A program made the translations under genes and the position numbers. Shown in pieces: positions 10,690 to 63,381 of a stretch of DNA of 64,000 nucleotides. Every line of letters starts with the position of its first letter. Positions within the stretch are counted from its first letter, which is position 1. This DNA is from Stigmatella aurantiaca. GTDB lineage: Bacteria > Myxococcota > Myxococcia > Myxococcales > Myxococcaceae. The stretch spans positions 310,001 to 374,000 of the forward strand of contig NZ_FOAP01000001.1 of assembly GCF_900109545.1 (NCBI RefSeq), written 5' to 3'. Below the pieces are notes generated by a model, which was not told the origin of the DNA, did not search any database, and saw only the letters and a list, made by a program, of their open reading frames with translations.

Positions 10690-10715
10690 GGAATAGTCCC
10701 CTGCTTTGGCGTACC
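10690..10715 (+). promoter_or_regulatory. Candidate ECF-type promoter of the sigma/CHAT operon
   Basis: GGAA at 10690-10693, 16 bp, then CGTAC at 10710-10714, in the layout of ECF promoters (GGAAC with a -10 around CGT). It lies about 35 bp before ATG 10751 and recurs upstream of the gene at 14429. This supports autoregulation and argues against the earlier in-frame start at 10706, which lies within the element. Confidence 0.5.
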
Positions 10716-10750
10716 GGAAGGGAAGGGCCCGACGAACGAGGGAGGACGCC

Positions 10751-11428
10751 ATGCAAGCGAGGGAGGCCCTGGAACCCCTTTCGCGATGGGTCCCCTCTGT
10801 GCCAAGTAGCGGGACTGTGGAGTTCCCGTTCCGATTCTCCCGCTCCCGGAAGCGGGACCGGGAGCCCGAGGCTACCGAAGGCCCTCGCGCCGCGGCCCCG
10901 GTGGTGGGGGATGCGGCGGAGTTCCAGCGGGTGGTGGCCAGCTGCCAGGCGAAGCTGGAGGAGCGGGCCCGCTTTCTGTGCCGGGGCCGGAGCCCGTCGG
11001 ATGCCACGGACCTCCTGCAGGACACCTACGAGCGGGCCTTCCGGGCCTTCCACACGTACGACCGGAATGCGCCCCCGCTGCCGTGGTTGGCCTCCATCCT
11101 CGTCCGGCGCTTTCTCGACCTGTGCCGGCACGACAAGCGCCACCCCGAGCAGGAGTTCACCGAGGCGCTGGACCGGCCGCGCGAGGAGGACGAGCCCGCG
11201 GAAGCCTGGGGCGGCTATACGCTGGACGATGTCTGGCGCGCGGTGGAGCTGTTGCCCCAGGAGTTCCGGGACGTGGTGCGGTTGAAGGACATGGAAGGGC
11301 TCTCGTACGCGCAGATTGGCCAGCGCCTGGGCATCGCCCCGATGACGGTGGGCACCCGGCTCTTCCGGGCGCGGAAGAAGCTCAAGGAGCTGCTCCTGAA
11401 GCAGGCGGCCCCGGAGGGCGGACGATGA
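10751..11428 (+). CDS. ECF-type RNA polymerase sigma factor
   Basis: 225 residues from ATG 10751, with GGGAGG 7 nt upstream. After a non-conserved basic N-terminal extension of about 55 residues comes region 2 (DATDLLQDTYERAFRAFHTYD and PLPWLASILVRRFLDLCR) and then region 4 (LPQEFRDVVRLKDMEGLSYAQIG with the helix-turn-helix IAPMTVGTRLFRARKKL). There is no region 1 or 3, as expected for ECF sigma factors. Its TGA overlaps the ATG of the next gene (ATGA at 11425-11428), so sigma and anti-sigma are translationally coupled. The extended N-terminus is unusual and might add a control step. Its likely targets include its own promoter and that of the gene at 14429. Confidence 0.95.
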   Translation: MQAREALEPLSRWVPSVPSSGTVEFPFRFSRSRKRDREPEATEGPRAAAPVVGDAAEFQRVVASCQAKLEERARFLCRGRSPSDATDLLQDTYERAFRAFHTYDRNAPPLPWLASILVRRFLDLCRHDKRHPEQEFTEALDRPREEDEPAEAWGGYTLDDVWRAVELLPQEFRDVVRLKDMEGLSYAQIGQRLGIAPMTVGTRLFRARKKLKELLLKQAAPEGGR

Positions 11429-14358
11429 CGTCTTCCTGTGAGCAGTTGGCCGCCTTCGTGGATGGGGAGCTGTCCCCCGTGGAGGCGGAGGCCTTCCAGA
11501 AGCACCTGTCCGGCTGCGAGGAGTGCCAGGCGGGGCTGATGGATCAGGTGCAGGCGAGCACCGCCGTGCAGGCCGCCGGGGAGCACGCCCGGCAGAAGAC
11601 CCGCGCGCCCTTTCAACCCGTCCGGGCCCGGCGGCGGACCCGTGCCGTGCCGTATGCCGTGGGGGCCGTGGCCGTGGTCCTGCTTGGCGTCCTGGCGGTG
11701 CGTGGACTGCGGACGTCTCCCGAGGATCCCCTGCTGCTGGCCCATGCCGAGACACGGCCCCTGGAGGGCTGGCTCAGCTACCCGGGCGCAAGGCGCTACC
11801 GCCCCCTGGCCACGATGCGAAGCGGCTCGGCGGATCGGGCGGGGCTGGACCACCGCCGCCTGGCGGAACTCGAAGACCGGGGGGACTTCCACGGCGTGGC
11901 GACGGCGTACCTGCTCGCAGGCGAGTTCGAGCGCGCGGAGCAGTTCCTGGACCGGGCGCCCGCCTCCCCAGAGGTGGACAGTGACCGCGCGCTGGCGGCG
12001 CTGGGGCGGGGAGATGCCGAGCGCGCCCTGGGGCTGCTGGAGCACGCGCGGACGTCAGCGCCGCGGAGCCCGCGGGTGCACTGGAACCGGGGCGTGGTGC
12101 TGCGGGCCATGGCCCTGGAGCTGGCCGCCTCCGTCGAGTTCCAGCACGTGGCGGACACGGCCGAGCCGGGCTGGAGCGAGGAGGCGAAGCGGCTCGCCGG
12201 AGGGCTTCGGGCCAACGCGGAGGCCCGCCAGAAGGCGTGGAGCGCCTTGACGGAAGCGGGGCAGGCGCTGGCGTTGCAGGGCACGCCCATGCCTGCCGCG
12301 ATGGTGCCGCGCAACCCGGGCCGGGTGCGGCTGTACCTCTACCATGCGCTCCGGACCGCGGCGTCGCGGGAGCAGGTGCTCGCGCTGCTGCCCCTGGCCC
12401 AGTCGCTGGACCAGGTGTCCCGGACGCGCACGGCCTCCGCCTCCGTCCAGCGCATCGCCGGGGCGGACTTCGCGCGGCGGGCACCCCTGGCGGAGACGTA
12501 CCGCACGCTGCTGGCGGCCCCGGGGGCGCTGTCGGACGGGGAGAAGACGGCGTACCTGGAGCGGCTCCGGCGCTCGGGCGAGCAGGACCTGCTCCTGGGG
12601 GCCATCCTCCTGATGGGGGCGGAGCGCCAGCACCTCGCCGAGGTGGAGCGGCTCGTCCAGGCCTCGGACGACGTGCTCTGGTACCGGGGCCCCCTGGTGA
12701 AGGCCCAGGCCCTGGAGGAGATGGCGCGGGGCGCGGGCACGGCGGCCGAGCAGCGCCTCCAGGAGGCCGTGGAGGACTCCCGCCGGGCGGGGCTGGACTA
12801 CCGGAGCATCGCGCTCCAGGAAGAGCTGAGCACCCTCTACAACCGGCTGGACCGCCGCCGGGAGGCCATGCAGGTGGCGCGCGCGGCGCTGGAGGCTGCC
12901 CGCAGGACCGATGACTGGTTCCACGAGGACCTGCTCGTGTTCGACCTGGTGACGAGCGCCCGGTTGAGCCACGCCCCCGCGCTGGCCCGGGCCTACCTGG
13001 ACGAGTACCTCCAGCGCGCTCCGGAGGACTGTGCCCGGCGCGCGGAGTACCACCACTTCCGGGCCCTGCTGGCCGTGGAGGCACTGGATGCGCCGGCGGC
13101 GCGGCACGAGCTGGCCCAGGCCCAGGCGTGCCCCGCGGCCCCGACGCTGTTCGAGATCGCCGTCTACGGAGACCTGCTCCGGTTTGGCGCCACCGGAGCC
13201 GAGCGGGCGCGGGCGGAGGACCGGATCCGCCTGCTGCGCCAGGATGCCTCGCTCGAACCGGACCAGCGCCTGCTGCTGGAGCACCTCGCGGGCCGCATCC
13301 TCATCGAGACGGATCGCCCCGGGGGCCAGCGCATCCTCCGCGACGTCATCGCCGGGGCGGAGAAGCGCCGGGAAACGGACATCGAGGCGCGCAAGGCCTG
13401 GTCCCACAGCTACCAGGCCCTGGTGCGGGACGCGGGCAAGGCCGGAGCGTTCGACGAGGCCATCGCCCTGCTCTCGGCCGAGCTCGAACGGGCCGCGCCG
13501 CCCACGTGCCTGCTGGCCCTGGCCGGGCAGGACGAGCGGATCCTCTTCGTGGCGAAGGGCCCCCAGGGCGAGACCCGGGGCGAATACCGCGAGGGGCTCA
13601 CCCGCTCCCTGCACGAGGCGGTGCCTCCCGTCCCCGCCGCGCTCCAGGCGGTGCTCGAAGGCTGTGACACGGTGCGGGTGCTCGCGGAGCCGCTCCTGCA
13701 AGGGCGTCCGGGGCTGCTGGGCCCGGACCGGGCCTGGAGCTACCTGGCCCCCAAGGTCCGGGGGCCGAATGCCCCGGCGGTGGGAACCTCCTTCAAGCAC
13801 GTCGTCGTATCGGACGTGGAGCCTCCGGCCTCCCTGGGCCTGCCGCGCCTGCTGCCCTGGAGCCGCCCCCCGGAGCCGGGCGAGGTCCACCTCAGAGGCG
13901 CCTCCGCGACCCCCGAGGCCGTGCTGGCGGAGCTCACCGATGCCACCCAGGTGGAGTTCCACGCGCATGGCCTGAGCCGGTCCGGCTTCTCCGATGCGTC
14001 CTTCCTCGCGCTCTCGCCGGGCGCCAGGGGCCGCTACGCGCTGACGGCGGCGGACCTTCAGGGCCGCTCGCTCCGGGGCGCGCCCCTGGTGTTGCTGGCG
14101 GCCTGCGAGGCGAACGTGGGGGCCCTGCGCTACCACGATGTGTGGAGTCTGCCCGCGGCCTTCATCCAGGCCGGCGCGCGCTCGGTGGTGGCCCCGTCCT
14201 CCCAGGTTCCGGACGCCGAGGTGGGCACCTTCTTCCAGGAACTGCTCGAACGCGTGGACGCGGGGGCCACGGCCGCCCAGGCGCTCCGGGACACGCGCCG
14301 GGCCTGGCTCCAGACAAAGCCCACGCGTTGGGTGGAGGACCTGGTGGTGTTCGAGTAG
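11425..14358 (+). CDS. Anti-sigma zinc finger - TM - TPR-like - CHAT protease fusion
   Basis: 977 residues. Residues 1-60 form a zinc-finger anti-sigma domain (Cys5; His27-x3-Cys31-x2-Cys34), which would hold the coupled ECF sigma factor in the cytoplasm. A very basic segment (RARRRTR) precedes one transmembrane helix at about 75-94, so by the positive-inside rule the C-terminal ~880 residues lie in the periplasm. Residues ~130-760 are Ala/Leu/Arg/Glu-rich helical pairs consistent with degenerate TPRs. The last ~200 residues are a CHAT (caspase-like) domain: His848 in VEFHAHG, Cys894 in LVLLAACEANVG, then the typical AFIQAGARSVVAP strand. Both catalytic residues are present. I infer that a periplasmic signal is read by the TPR region and that CHAT cleavage, of itself or of a partner, alters sigma release. 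The fold calls are firm; the mechanism is hypothetical. Confidence 0.9.
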   Translation: MTSSCEQLAAFVDGELSPVEAEAFQKHLSGCEECQAGLMDQVQASTAVQAAGEHARQKTRAPFQPVRARRRTRAVPYAVGAVAVVLLGVLAVRGLRTSPEDPLLLAHAETRPLEGWLSYPGARRYRPLATMRSGSADRAGLDHRRLAELEDRGDFHGVATAYLLAGEFERAEQFLDRAPASPEVDSDRALAALGRGDAERALGLLEHARTSAPRSPRVHWNRGVVLRAMALELAASVEFQHVADTAEPGWSEEAKRLAGGLRANAEARQKAWSALTEAGQALALQGTPMPAAMVPRNPGRVRLYLYHALRTAASREQVLALLPLAQSLDQVSRTRTASASVQRIAGADFARRAPLAETYRTLLAAPGALSDGEKTAYLERLRRSGEQDLLLGAILLMGAERQHLAEVERLVQASDDVLWYRGPLVKAQALEEMARGAGTAAEQRLQEAVEDSRRAGLDYRSIALQEELSTLYNRLDRRREAMQVARAALEAARRTDDWFHEDLLVFDLVTSARLSHAPALARAYLDEYLQRAPEDCARRAEYHHFRALLAVEALDAPAARHELAQAQACPAAPTLFEIAVYGDLLRFGATGAERARAEDRIRLLRQDASLEPDQRLLLEHLAGRILIETDRPGGQRILRDVIAGAEKRRETDIEARKAWSHSYQALVRDAGKAGAFDEAIALLSAELERAAPPTCLLALAGQDERILFVAKGPQGETRGEYREGLTRSLHEAVPPVPAALQAVLEGCDTVRVLAEPLLQGRPGLLGPDRAWSYLAPKVRGPNAPAVGTSFKHVVVSDVEPPASLGLPRLLPWSRPPEPGEVHLRGASATPEAVLAELTDATQVEFHAHGLSRSGFSDASFLALSPGARGRYALTAADLQGRSLRGAPLVLLAACEANVGALRYHDVWSLPAAFIQAGARSVVAPSSQVPDAEVGTFFQELLERVDAGATAAQALRDTRRAWLQTKPTRWVEDLVVFE

Positions 14359-14360
14359 CC

Positions 14361-14386
14361 GGAAATAACGCTGGCCTGGGGCGTAC
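14361..14386 (+). promoter_or_regulatory. Second ECF-type promoter-like element
   Basis: GGAA at 14361-14364, 17 bp, then CGTAC at 14382-14386, which matches the element before the sigma gene apart from 1 bp of spacing. It starts only 3 bp after the stop of the CHAT gene and about 45 bp before ATG 14429, so the downstream gene may have its own sigma-dependent promoter. Confidence 0.45.
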
Positions 14387-14428
14387 AGGAGGAGAATCGT
14401 CACCTTGGACACCTCCTGGAGGTTTGGA

Positions 14429-14911
14429 ATGAAGCGCGGACTTCTGCTGGCACTGCTCACGTCGACGGCGGCCCTGGCCCGGGAGCCTCAACGGACCCCG
14501 GTGCCCCGGGGGGAGCCTTCTGGGCAGAACGTGCCCCGCTCCACCACCCTCGCCCCGGCGGCCGAGCCGGCCTACTTCGATGTCGTGGCCTCCGACGACA
14601 AGGGCCAGCGCGTGGGGACCTACCGGTTCTACCGGGACACCCGGAAGGTGGTCCTGCTGCGGGCCGGGAAGGAAATCGAGAACACGGCGGCCTTCAACCG
14701 CATCACCAGCCCCGGTGACTATGTGATTGCCGTGGCGCCGGAGAAGAAGCCGAAGCCCAACCCGCCCAACCCGGGGGACGAGTTCCGGAGCTCGTGGAAG
14801 GTGCCCCAGGCGGAGCTTCAAGAGGCCCTGAAGCAGGTCCAGGCCGAGGTGCCGGCGGCGAAGGGCTTCCTCGTCGGCCAGTTCGCCTCGGACGTGCCCC
14901 GGGCACGGTAG
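14429..14911 (+). CDS. Small secreted protein next to the CHAT gene (unknown function)
   Basis: 160 residues from ATG 14429, with GGAGG at about 14417-14421. A signal peptide (KRGLLLALLTSTAALA) is followed by an Arg/Pro-rich stretch, a compact beta-like core at about 50-105 (YFDVVASDDKGQRVGTYRFY...) and a Pro/Lys-rich loop, then a helical end. I recognise no family. It follows the CHAT gene by 70 bp and has its own ECF-like promoter element. As a periplasmic protein under the same sigma factor it is a natural candidate for the ligand, substrate or effector of the CHAT module, which is inference only. Confidence 0.7.
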   Translation: MKRGLLLALLTSTAALAREPQRTPVPRGEPSGQNVPRSTTLAPAAEPAYFDVVASDDKGQRVGTYRFYRDTRKVVLLRAGKEIENTAAFNRITSPGDYVIAVAPEKKPKPNPPNPGDEFRSSWKVPQAELQEALKQVQAEVPAAKGFLVGQFASDVPRAR

Positions 14912-15947: not shown

Positions 15948-17357
15948 ATGGCGAGCAGGAAGGTGGAGGAAGGCCGGCTCAAGCGGCTCAACGCGCACGC
16001 GGCGAAGGGCGGCGAGTACGTGCTGTACTGGATGCAGCAGAGCGCCCGCGCGGAGCACAACCCCGCCCTGGAGTACGCGGTTCAGCAGGCGAACGCGGCG
16101 AAGCTCCCACTCCTCGTGGGCTACGGGCTGATGGATGACTACCCCGAGGCGAACGTCCGCCATTACCGCTTCCTCTTGGAGGGGCTCCAGGACTGCCAGC
16201 GGACCCTGGCGGAGCGGGGGATTCCCTTCGTGCTCCAACGGGGTGCGCCGCCCGAGGTGGCGCTGAAACTCGCGCGGAACGCGGCGCTCGTGGTGTGTGA
16301 CCGGGGCTACCTGCGGCACCAGAAGCAATGGCGGGAGCAGGTGGCCCAGAAGGCCCTCTGCCCGGTGGTGCAGGTGGAGGCGGACGTGGTGGTGCCGGTG
16401 GAGGTGGCCTCGGTCAAGGCGGAGTTCGCGGCGCGTACCCTGCGGCCGAAGATTCACCGGCTCTGGGAGACGTACCTGGTGAAGCTCGCGCCCACACCGC
16501 TCCAGGTGGACTCCTTGAAGTTGGGCGTGAAGGGCCTGAACCTGGAGGATGTGGACGCGGTGCTGAAGAAGCTGGTGCTGGACCGCTCGGTGCCGCCTGT
16601 GCACCACCGCTTCCGGGGCGGCACGCGGGAGGCGAACCGGCTGTTGCGGACGTTCCTCCACCGGCACCTGCCCGAGTACCAGGAGAACCGTCCACACCCC
16701 GAGACGGACTACGTCTCGCACATGAGCAAGTACCTCCACTTCGGGCAGATGAGCCCGGTGGTGATTGCCCTCGCGGCCCGGGAGGCCCGGGCATTGCGGC
16801 CGCAGCGGGACACGTTCCTGGAGGAGCTCATCGTCCGGCGGGAGCTGGCGCAGAACTTCGCCGAGTACACGCCTCAATACGATTCCTATGCCTGCCTTCC
16901 GGCCTGGGCGCGCAAGACCTTGGCGGCCCACATGGGGGACGAGCGCCCCTTCCAATACACGAAGGAGCAGCTCGAACAGGCCCGCACGCATGATCCGTAC
17001 TGGAACGCCGCGATGCGGGAGATGCGTTACACGGGCTACATGCACAACGCCATGCGCATGTACTGGGGGAAGAAGATCCTGGAGTGGGGGAAGACGCCTG
17101 AGGAGGCGTACCGGACGGCGCTGACGCTCAACAACACGTACTTCCTGGATGGGCGCGACGCGAACTCCTTCGCCAACATCGGCTGGGTGTTCGGTCTGCA
17201 TGACCGCCCCTGGGGAGCGCGCGCCGTCTACGGTACCGTTCGCTCCATGTCCTCCAAGGGGCTGGAGCGAAAGGCAGACATGGCTGCCTATATCGCGAAG
17301 GTGGACGCGCTCGTGGACGAAGCGAAGGCGGCCGGGGTGCGCTTTGAAACAGATTGA
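15948..17357 (+). CDS. phrB: Class II CPD photolyase
   Basis: 469 residues. A light-driven FAD enzyme that reverses cyclobutane pyrimidine dimers. The class II signature is clear throughout: YWMQQSARAEHNPALEYA near the start, SHMSKYLHFGQMSP, EELIVRRELAQNF, DPYWNAAMREM, GYMHNAMRMYWGKKILEW, FLDGRDANSFANIGWVFGLHDRPW. These include the FAD-binding and tryptophan electron-transfer regions. Class II enzymes are frequent in myxobacteria. The class is distinct from E. coli PhrB (class I), so the symbol is used only in the broad sense. The stop is 10 bp from the convergent synthetase gene. Confidence 0.95.
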   Translation: MASRKVEEGRLKRLNAHAAKGGEYVLYWMQQSARAEHNPALEYAVQQANAAKLPLLVGYGLMDDYPEANVRHYRFLLEGLQDCQRTLAERGIPFVLQRGAPPEVALKLARNAALVVCDRGYLRHQKQWREQVAQKALCPVVQVEADVVVPVEVASVKAEFAARTLRPKIHRLWETYLVKLAPTPLQVDSLKLGVKGLNLEDVDAVLKKLVLDRSVPPVHHRFRGGTREANRLLRTFLHRHLPEYQENRPHPETDYVSHMSKYLHFGQMSPVVIALAAREARALRPQRDTFLEELIVRRELAQNFAEYTPQYDSYACLPAWARKTLAAHMGDERPFQYTKEQLEQARTHDPYWNAAMREMRYTGYMHNAMRMYWGKKILEWGKTPEEAYRTALTLNNTYFLDGRDANSFANIGWVFGLHDRPWGARAVYGTVRSMSSKGLERKADMAAYIAKVDALVDEAKAAGVRFETD

Positions 17358-60245: not shown

Positions 60246-61615
60246 GCCGCAAGCCCTCCACGGAGACACCCGCGGCCCCCTTGCCGCCTGGAGCCGGAGC
60301 ACCGCCCGCGCCCGGGGGCCCAAGGCGCTGGTGGGCGGCCTACAAGACGGAGGCCCTGCTCTTCCTGGTGGGCTTCGCGGTGCTGGCGAGCTTCAGCTCG
60401 CAGCGCTTCCTGCGCCAGAGCGCGGCCCCGCACTTCGTCTACCAGGCCCAGTCGTGGCTGGAGGGACGGCTGGACGTGGATCCGGAGGTGCTGCCCAACC
60501 TGGAGGACTGGGCCTGCGTGCGCGTGCGGGAGGGGAAGAAGGTCCGGTGCGAGGGGCGGCTGTTGCCCGGGGACCGCTGGTACGTGAGCTTCCCGTCGTT
60601 TCCGGCGGTGGTGATGCTCCCGTTCGTGGCGCTGCACGGCTACCAGTTCAACGACACCTCATTCGGCGTCGTCACCGGGGCGCTGGCCCTGGTGAGCTTC
60701 TACGTCCTGCTGCGCTTCCTGTCGCGGCGCGGAGAGTCCTCGCGGAGCCCGCACGAGAACCTCGCGCTGGCGCTCCTCCTCGGCTTCGGCACGCTGTTCT
60801 TCTCCTGCGCCATCCGGGGCGAAGTGTGGTTCAGCGCGGAGGTGATGGGGGTGGCGCTCACCTGCCTCTACGTGCGCAACGCGGTGGGGGCGAACCGCCC
60901 GGTGCTCGCGGGCCTGTTCTTCTCCATGGCCACGCTCACGCGCACGCCGCTGCTCTTCGCGGGCCTCTTCTTCGTCCTGGAGGCGCTGTGCCCTGGGCCA
61001 GACCGGCGCGAGCAGCTCCGGACCCTCGCCCGGAACTGGAAGCCCGCGGCCCGGAAGCTGGGCCTCTTCGCCCTGGGGGCCGCGCCGCTCGCCAGCCTCG
61101 CGGCGGCCTATAACCTCTACCGCTTCGGCCGCCTGGGGGAGTTCGGCCACGCGTTCCTCTACAACAACCGCGTCAACCTCGACATCGACCGGCACGGGCT
61201 GTTCAACCTCGCCTACCTGGGGCGGAACCTGGAGGCCGCCTTCTTCAAGCTGCCCCAGGTGTCGTGGAACCCGCTCCGGCTGGGGTACGACCCGCATGGG
61301 CTGACGCTGCTGCTCACGTTGCCGCTGCTCGTCTTCCTGGTCATCCCGAAGAGCCGCCCCCGGCTGCACCTGCCCCTGTGGCTCACCGTGGCGGTGTGCG
61401 CGCTGCCCGGGCTCTTCTACCAGAACACCGGCTACATGCAGTTCGGCTTCCGGTTCAGCCTGGACTACACGCCCTACCTGCTGGTGCTGTTCGCCGTGGG
61501 CGGCTGGTCCCTGCGCCACCGGGCGGTGCTGGCGGCCGTGGCGCTCGGCGTCCTGGTGAACTTCTGGGGGGCCGTGGCCTTCCGGGGCTACACGGAGCTT
61601 GTCCGGAACTGGTAG
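60242..61615 (+). CDS. Polytopic membrane protein, GT-C-like
   Basis: 457 residues from ATG 60242, coupled to cinA. A Pro/Ala-rich cytoplasmic N-terminus (~30) is followed by about nine to ten TM helices. The first external loop contains the motif HFVYQAQSWLEGRLDVDP, which is typical of DUF2029/GT-C-like and dolichyl-phosphate-mannosyltransferase-like proteins. A long tail contains GYMQFGFRFSLDYTPYLLVL. I infer a lipid-linked sugar transferase, but no catalytic assignment is possible by eye. A hairpin follows the stop. Confidence 0.75.
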   Translation: MSRKPSTETPAAPLPPGAGAPPAPGGPRRWWAAYKTEALLFLVGFAVLASFSSQRFLRQSAAPHFVYQAQSWLEGRLDVDPEVLPNLEDWACVRVREGKKVRCEGRLLPGDRWYVSFPSFPAVVMLPFVALHGYQFNDTSFGVVTGALALVSFYVLLRFLSRRGESSRSPHENLALALLLGFGTLFFSCAIRGEVWFSAEVMGVALTCLYVRNAVGANRPVLAGLFFSMATLTRTPLLFAGLFFVLEALCPGPDRREQLRTLARNWKPAARKLGLFALGAAPLASLAAAYNLYRFGRLGEFGHAFLYNNRVNLDIDRHGLFNLAYLGRNLEAAFFKLPQVSWNPLRLGYDPHGLTLLLTLPLLVFLVIPKSRPRLHLPLWLTVAVCALPGLFYQNTGYMQFGFRFSLDYTPYLLVLFAVGGWSLRHRAVLAAVALGVLVNFWGAVAFRGYTELVRNW

Positions 61616-61669: not shown

Positions 61670-62167
61670 ATGCAACCTCCCACCGGCCAGCCCCCTCCCG
61701 GCCAGCGTTGGCACACGCGCGAGGACAGCGGTATCCGCCTTGATGTGGCCCTACGCTGGTGGCACGACGACAAGCCCGTGGAGCACCCGAAGATCATCGA
61801 GCTCTTCAACACCTCGCTCGTGCTCGATGACGAGGGGCGCTACCAGCTGCGCATCGGCAAGGACTGGTGCTACGTCCAGGTCGAGGAGGCCGCCTACGAG
61901 GTGCGCACGGTGGACGTGACGGAGGACGAGCGCGTCTCCGTCCGCTTGAGTGACCGCACCGCCGAGGCCCTGGAGCCCGCCACGCTGAGGCTGGGGACCG
62001 ATGGCGTCTTCCGCTGCCGGGTGAAGGGCGCCAGGGCCCTGGCCCGCTTCTCCCGCGATGCCCAGTACCAGCTGGGCGAACTGCTGGAGGAAGGGCAGGA
62101 CGGCCGCCTCTTCCTCCGTGCGGGCCAGCGCCGCCTGGCCATCTCGCTGGACGCGCCCCCGGCTTAG
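61670..62167 (+). CDS. DUF1285 protein
   Basis: 165 residues from ATG 61670, with AAGGAG upstream. The N-terminal half matches the DUF1285 pattern: [37 protein letters not shown], then [14 protein letters not shown]. Cytoplasmic and soluble. The family has no firmly established function. Its stop overlaps the convergent recA stop by 4 bp, so the two transcripts overlap. Confidence 0.8.
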
Positions 62168-63195
62168 GCCACCGCCTCGGCCGCCTCGGGCAGGGCGGCC
62201 AGGGCGGGCGCGCTCCCCGCGAGCTCAGCGGCCAGCGCCTCCAGGACCTGGGGCCGTTCGCGCAGCCAGTCCGTGGCGCGCTCCCGGCCCTGGCCAATCC
62301 GCTCCCCGCGCAGGCTGAAGTGGCTGCCGGACTTCTCGATGAGGCCCAGCTGCACGCCCAGGTCCAGCACCTCGCCCGCGCGGTGGATGCCCACGCCGTA
62401 CAGCAAGTCGAACTCCGCCTCCTGGAAGGGCGGCGCCAGCTTGTTCTTCACCACCTTCACGCGCGCCCGCGTGCCGATGATGCTCTCGCCCTCCTTGAGG
62501 TTGCCCGTGCGGCGGATCTCCAGCCGCACCGAGGAGTAGAACTTCAGCGCGTTGCCTCCCGTGGTCGTCTCCGGGTTGCCGAACATCACGCCGATCTTCA
62601 TGCGGATCTGGTTGATGAAGAGGATGCAGGTGCCTGAGCGGCTCACCGCGCCCGTGAGCTTGCGCAGGGCCTGGCTCATCAGCCGGGCCTGCACGCCCAT
62701 GTGCGCATCGCCCATCTCCCCCTCGATTTCGGCGCGGGGCACCAGCGCCGCCACCGAGTCCACCACGATGAGATCCACCGCTCCGGAGCGCACGAGCTGC
62801 TCGGTGATTTCCAGCGCCTGCTCGCCGGTGTCGGGCTGGGAGATGAGCAGCTCCTCCACGCGCACCCCCAGCTTGCGGGCGTAATTGACGTCCAGCGCGT
62901 GCTCGGCGTCGATGAAGGCCGCCACCCCGCCCGAGGCCTGCACCTGCGCGATGGCGTGCAGGCTCAGGCTCGTCTTGCCAGAGGACTCATTGCCGAACAG
63001 CTCCACCACCCGGCCGCGCGGATAGCCCCCCACCCCCAGCGCCCGGTCCAGGCTCACCGAGCCCGACGGGATGACCGCCACCTTCTGCTCCTGCGCCTCG
63101 CCGCCCAGCGCCATCACCGCCCCCTTGCCGAACTGCTTCTCGATTGCCGCCACCGCCGCCGCCACTGCCTTCAGCTTCTCCGCCACCTTGTTCAT
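62164..63195 (-). CDS. recA: RecA recombinase
   Basis: 343 residues from ATG 63195, with GGAG 7 nt upstream. Forms filaments on single-stranded DNA, drives strand exchange and promotes LexA cleavage. The core is well conserved: [21 protein letters not shown], Walker A region at 68-75, [63 protein letters not shown] for loop L2. The Walker A reads G-N-E-S-S-G-K-T where nearly all RecA have G-P-E-S-S-G-K-T. Myxobacteria often have two recA genes, and this may be the divergent one. No LexA box was recognised in the 186 bp upstream. Confidence 0.97.
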
Positions 63196-63381
63196 GGTTG
63201 CTCCAACGCCGCCCTTCACGGGGACTGGGTGCTGCGCCCGGGCGCTTCGCGTCCACGGGTGCATCGTGCGGGGGCAGGAGCAATGACCGTGCCGGAGGGC
63301 TTCCGCTCGGAGGCGGACGCGAGGAGGGTCCAGAAACGAGCCGCCCGTCCCGCATCGTGGATGGGGGGCCCGCGCGAGCGC

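Follow-up and report, generated by a model that had tools for sequence, protein, structure and literature searches.

A conserved promoter-like element precedes a DdvS/DdvA-type ECF sigma factor operon and an adjacent gene for a small exported-looking protein in Stigmatella aurantiaca

The window analysed here, a stretch of 64,000 nucleotides from Stigmatella aurantiaca, encodes an extracytoplasmic function (ECF) sigma factor, an anti-sigma protein resembling DdvA and a small exported-looking protein, with one copy of a predicted promoter element in front of the sigma gene (P1) and another in front of the exported-protein gene (P2). Coordinates are collected in Table 1. From its short length and its possession of regions 2 and 4, the sigma protein is classed by sequence as an ECF factor (group 4), and it matches the NCBIfam model sigma70-ECF well above the cut-off (2.7e-21; 75.9 bits against 42.9). 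Its gene lies directly upstream of the anti-sigma gene, the stop and start codons overlapping in ATGA (11425-11428), and only 70 nt separate the anti-sigma stop codon from the ATG of the exported-protein gene.

Table 1. Features of the sigma factor locus, with positions counted from the first base of the window.
Feature	Position	Strand	Evidence
Predicted promoter element P1 (sigma operon), -35/-10, GGAATA-N13-GCGTA	10690..10713	+	Kept in 25/25 orthologous loci
Gene for an ECF sigma factor of 225 aa with regions 2 and 4 (ATG start)	10751..11428	+	Pfam Sigma70_r4_2 3.4e-15, Sigma70_r2 1.1e-9
DdvA-type anti-sigma gene, 977 aa, zinc finger, likely transmembrane helix, TPR and CHAT	11425..14358	+	Pfam zf-HC2 3.5e-9, CHAT 1.2e-21
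Predicted promoter element P2 (exported-protein gene), GAAATA-N13-GCGTA	14362..14385	+	Kept in 20/20 loci holding the stretch
Gene for small exported-looking protein, 160 aa, ATG start, conserved PE(G)-proline-rich stretch	14429..14911	+	Signal-peptide-like N-terminus (by eye)

The anti-sigma protein aligns along its full length with Myxococcus xanthus DdvA (PDB 8rot; phmmer 5.4e-109 over residues 2-977), its matches among solved structures being 8rot and 8rw5 (DdvA) and 8rlz (the DdvA N-terminal domain). Foldseek run with a predicted model returned the same proteins at the top (8rw5, 2.0e-30; 8rot, 1.3e-29; template modelling scores of 0.54-0.60), the model itself being of moderate confidence, with a mean predicted local distance difference test score (pLDDT) of 70 and a CHAT core below 50. 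Both proteins combine a zinc-finger anti-sigma domain, TPR repeats and a CHAT domain, together with what in the window protein is a likely membrane segment, at a low identity of 30-32%. In the N-terminal HxxxCxxC zinc-finger domain, residues H27, C31 and C34 were invariant in all 20 sequences compared, as were H846, H848 and C894 of the CHAT domain, some of which we take, from the CHAT family, to be catalytic. A hydrophobic stretch at about residues 77-94, seen by eye behind an Arg-rich segment and falling in a low-confidence part of the model, is likely to form a membrane helix, and the TPR-CHAT part would then probably lie outside the inner membrane.

A preliminary description of this DNA had placed GGAA and CGTAC boxes at 10690-10714 and 14361-14386, and we found them exactly there, at the stated distance of about 35-45 bp from a start codon (37 nt from the last base of CGTA to the ATG of the sigma gene; 43 nt for the exported-protein gene). 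It had also stated that the two sites share both boxes exactly and differ by 1 bp in spacing. AATA and GCGTA are indeed common to both sites, but the -35 box reads GGAATA at P1 and GAAATA at P2. The apparent difference in spacing is a register artefact arising from that GAAATA and disappears once the sites are aligned on their core (AATA-N13-GCGTA at 10692-10713 and 14364-14385). Sharpened by comparison with relatives, the conserved sequence element is GGAATA-N13-GCGTA.

The sigma protein was searched against 96 genomes of the family, and close relatives (E ≤ 1e-50) were found in 25 of them, own genome included: all seven genomes of the same genus, all 16 of Corallococcus (g43) and two of four of a third genus (g12). 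The element is kept with the sigma factor across these three genera. It stands ahead of the sigma operon in all 25 loci (11 with no mismatch and 14 with one mismatch to GGAATA-N13-GCGTA, elements ahead of genes inserted between promoter and sigma gene being counted), against an expectation of 0.155 of 25 when the upstream DNA is shuffled by mononucleotides. P2 was present between the anti-sigma and exported-protein genes in each of the 20 loci that hold this stretch, the other five ending earlier, and also in 11/11 loci of a set of named genomes that are partly the same. All 45 sites (25 P1 and 20 P2) have the same AATA and CGTA, whereas the spacer differs between sites at most of its positions. 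A pattern with the spacer free between 11 and 15, which does not cover the ACGTA form found at most Corallococcus P1 sites, gave 33 hits in the 25 loci, every one with a spacer of 13; the mismatch and invariance counts used a spacer fixed at 13. P1 also stays at the front of the operon despite genes ahead of the sigma gene, about 0.7 kb in most Corallococcus, where a gene for a 216-amino-acid lipoprotein precedes the sigma gene within the operon, and about 2 kb in two loci (L066 and L069), where genes for a papain-like peptidase with BTRD1 repeats (a Pfam assignment made for L066) and for a second exported-looking protein separate the element from the sigma gene.

The preliminary description had treated an equal density of the motif elsewhere as evidence against a promoter, and the outcome depended on how the motif is written. 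In the form first proposed, GGAA-N15-18-CGTAC, it occurred three times in the window (0.42 expected from shuffling; none of 100 shuffles reached three), the third match (60580-60603, minus strand) having no AATA core and being unrelated to P1 and P2. Over the whole genome (9.37 Mb) this form was not enriched, with 153 matches against 286 for a backwards control; it is thus unremarkable genome-wide and would have been rejected by that density criterion, and the finding rests on position and conservation. The refined pattern GRAATA-N13-GCGTA, in contrast, withstands the criterion, with three hits in the same genome and none in the control: P1, P2 and a site in contig C15, which precedes the gene for a 461-amino-acid lipoprotein and is kept before the same gene in both relatives examined (L170 and L179).

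Further copies of the element accompany the sigma factor in other genomes. The 25 genomes with the sigma factor contained 127 GAATA-N13-GCGTA sites against 24 for the control, 29 of the 127 being P1 or P2 sites, and at least three sites were found in 23 of these genomes compared with 10 of the 71 genomes lacking the sigma factor. All calls of export come from inspection of N-terminal sequences by eye; by that measure 18 of 20 further sites, chosen mostly for recurrence between genomes, precede an exported-looking open reading frame, the remaining two being L136 (inside a long open frame) and L120. Two protein families illustrate the association. Among the matches listed for an exported family of 133 amino acids (30 loci), the element lay upstream in nine of 14 homologues from genomes with the sigma factor and in none of 16 from genomes without it (Fisher 1.4e-4). 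The 216-amino-acid lipoprotein family was found in 18/25 genomes with the sigma factor and 0/71 without, and the element precedes 24 of its 26 copies (that of copies L231 and L233 being taken from a separate count), both inside the Corallococcus sigma operon and at unlinked positions, as in three genomes of the same genus in which each unlinked gene has its own element. Lengthening the spacer by one base gave 11 hits with at most one mismatch in seven genomes against 10 for the backwards control, none of them at P1, P2 or other element sites. The 11 exact hits of the genus-level one-mismatch scan were all P1, P2 or among the further sites described above.

More distant relatives of the sigma factor appear to have elements of their own. 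Eight of 16 distant sigma matches adjoin a gene for a CHAT anti-sigma protein, and all eight of these paralogous pairs carry an upstream GGGAA-N16-CGT with the geometry of P1 and P2 but different flanking bases (CGTT at the end in seven, CGTC in one; at L031/L248 the element may lie inside an open frame). Such related but distinct elements fit a picture, drawn from sequence comparison, in which each sigma factor reads its own.

We consider it probable (roughly 0.85) that P1 and P2 are promoters of the ECF sigma factor encoded between them, which would be restrained by the adjacent anti-sigma protein and serve a small regulon of exported proteins. Comparison of the loci lends strong support to the earlier proposal of an autoregulated sigma factor with at least one extra local target. 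Under this reading the membrane-bound anti-sigma protein would keep the sigma factor inactive through its N-terminal zinc-finger domain until a signal, probably sensed beyond the inner membrane by the TPR-CHAT part, sets it free. Free sigma factor would then transcribe its own operon from P1, a positive feedback with a built-in brake as the operon includes the anti-sigma gene, and the gene for the small exported protein from P2, and it would read the few unlinked copies of the element to produce other exported proteins and lipoproteins. With so small and conserved a set of targets and so clean a promoter element, signal and release should be directly testable by a reporter.

Several observations weigh against this reading. 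Since the orthologous loci share ancestry and the P1 sites of Corallococcus are near-identical, the 25 loci amount to far fewer independent cases. The 71 genomes lacking the sigma factor also exceed their control (81 GAATA-N13-GCGTA sites against 39), five of the 14 listed homologues of the 133-amino-acid protein in genomes with the sigma factor have no element, and the 216-amino-acid lipoprotein is absent from the genome of the window itself. Scans allowing one mismatch were not above control either in this genome (29 against 52) or in the genus (54 against 52), and weak sites therefore cannot be called. One sequence, GGGAATAGAGGACTGCTGCGGCGAA, is identical at seven places in a single genome (G005) and inflates the one-mismatch counts.

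A rival reading is that the elements are genuine promoters but serve a different ECF sigma factor of this organism, the linked one using something else. Cross-recognition is conceivable given the related elements (GGGAA-N16-CGTT) of the paralogous sigma factors in relatives, and the excess of matches in genomes without the window-type sigma factor points the same way, but the number of elements tracks the presence of that sigma factor, the paralogue promoters have a different -35 edge and a different final -10 base, and all 16 listed loci that encode the 133-amino-acid exported protein in genomes without the sigma factor have no element. We regard this explanation as unlikely. Less probable still is that P2 represents a conserved regulatory site within an operon transcript, the exported-protein gene being reached by read-through from P1. 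The short gap after the anti-sigma gene would suit such an arrangement, as would a possible hairpin in the leader, although its energy is ordinary (z -1.2); P2, however, has the boxes and spacing of P1, and the same element precedes unlinked genes for exported-looking proteins. That two short, degenerate matches arose by chance in a GC-rich genome is barely credible when the sites are conserved in every locus that could be compared, the spacer is 13 wherever it was free to vary and the refined pattern has three hits in 9.37 Mb against none in its control, even though the pattern as first written is rarer in the genome than its backwards control.

A promoter with a GGAA-type -35 box, autoregulation and a cotranscribed membrane anti-sigma protein are familiar from RpoE/RseA and SigW/RsiW. 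The Stigmatella locus differs from these in the large TPR-CHAT part of its anti-sigma protein and in its boxes, GGAATA and GCGTA. Judged from sequence, the locus is best read as an autoregulated ECF system of the DdvS/DdvA type, a type already known, to which it would add a member. In M. xanthus, activity of the ddvS promoter is reported to depend on DdvS, and inactivation of DdvA leaves DdvS active; the inactivating signal was described in 2015 as unknown (PMC4374960). DdvS is reported to control an antiphage island (PMC12288465), and control of a CBASS/CRISPR island is a property of M. xanthus DdvS rather than of the family. Here the three strong genomic sites, in a scan that could not judge weaker ones and with no search aimed at cas or CBASS genes, precede the sigma operon and the genes of two exported-looking proteins. 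The branch suggests that a single architecture may have been put to use for antiphage defence in one lineage and for exported proteins in another. A TPR-CHAT protein controls an ECF sigma factor, as proposed here, in the CASP/Craspase system (type III-E CRISPR), for which PMC10028731 describes a TPR-CHAT protease (Csx29), Csx30 and an ECF sigma factor with predicted targets in the locus. In that system the CHAT protein is separate, activated by RNA and cleaves a separate sigma inhibitor; in the present locus a single protein carries both the anti-sigma and the CHAT domain, the CHAT part probably lying outside the membrane. The literature matches listed included no publication on this sigma branch, in a search that left many subscription papers outside its scope, and the passages of PMC7406223 make no mention of CHAT.

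The distance from DdvS/DdvA-like systems elsewhere was gauged from neighbourhoods of DdvA-like genes. DdvA-like proteins with a CHAT domain are common in the family: of 13 genomes searched, 12 had matches, amounting to 54 stretches (some of them partial), with one in the genome of the window. Thirty of the 54 were taken as loci, with sigma genes located by a hidden Markov model (HMM). Eight of the 30 had no sigma domain upstream and one (L252) had an oddly placed sigma gene. L237, L248 and L249 were the only loci with GGGAA-N16-CGT, and L238 and L250 had GGAA-N16-CGT; among the sigma genes beside 15 other, more distant DdvA-like genes, none had such an element except for the GGAA-N16-CGT at L250. 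The window sigma factor and its orthologues scored 247-260 with the HMM and the sigma factors beside those 15 genes 92-119, on a model built from the window branch and its paralogues and hence biased towards them, M. xanthus DdvS lying outside the comparison. DdvA of M. xanthus was absent from the 30 loci, the best identity to its N-terminus being 57.6% over 33 residues. In eight loci of another genus (g23; L242-L245, L252, L253, L255 and L256) the stretches upstream of the sigma genes share AA-N16-CGTT by eye, which we note as a lead only, and in one locus (L022 in genome G034) DdvA-like coding sequence flanks a single sigma gene on both sides.

The small exported-looking protein matched no Pfam family, and a search of solved structures with its profile gave nothing credible (a single match, E 0.84); its fold model is poor (pLDDT 63). 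The gene, with its own element, keeps its place behind the anti-sigma gene in the loci holding the stretch; its sequence evolves rapidly outside a YR and PEG-proline-rich core. Between the genus of the window and Corallococcus, the case for homology depends on YR and PE(G)-proline-rich positions of an alignment with 17-22% identity. At L071 the longest-open-frame rule took another frame, and the DNA there shows the beginning of the expected protein. Because of this constant linkage and the separate promoter, it is a reasonable though unproven idea, and on balance a doubtful one, that the protein is a dedicated partner (substrate, ligand or inhibitor) of the anti-sigma CHAT part beyond the membrane. 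If so, the sigma factor would drive production of the very protein by which its release is triggered or reset, closing a feedback loop across the membrane. The leader of the gene (14386-14445) could form a hairpin by pairing of AGGAGG with CCTCCT. Elsewhere the window also contains a DNA photolyase gene (15948-17357) and recA (62164-63264).

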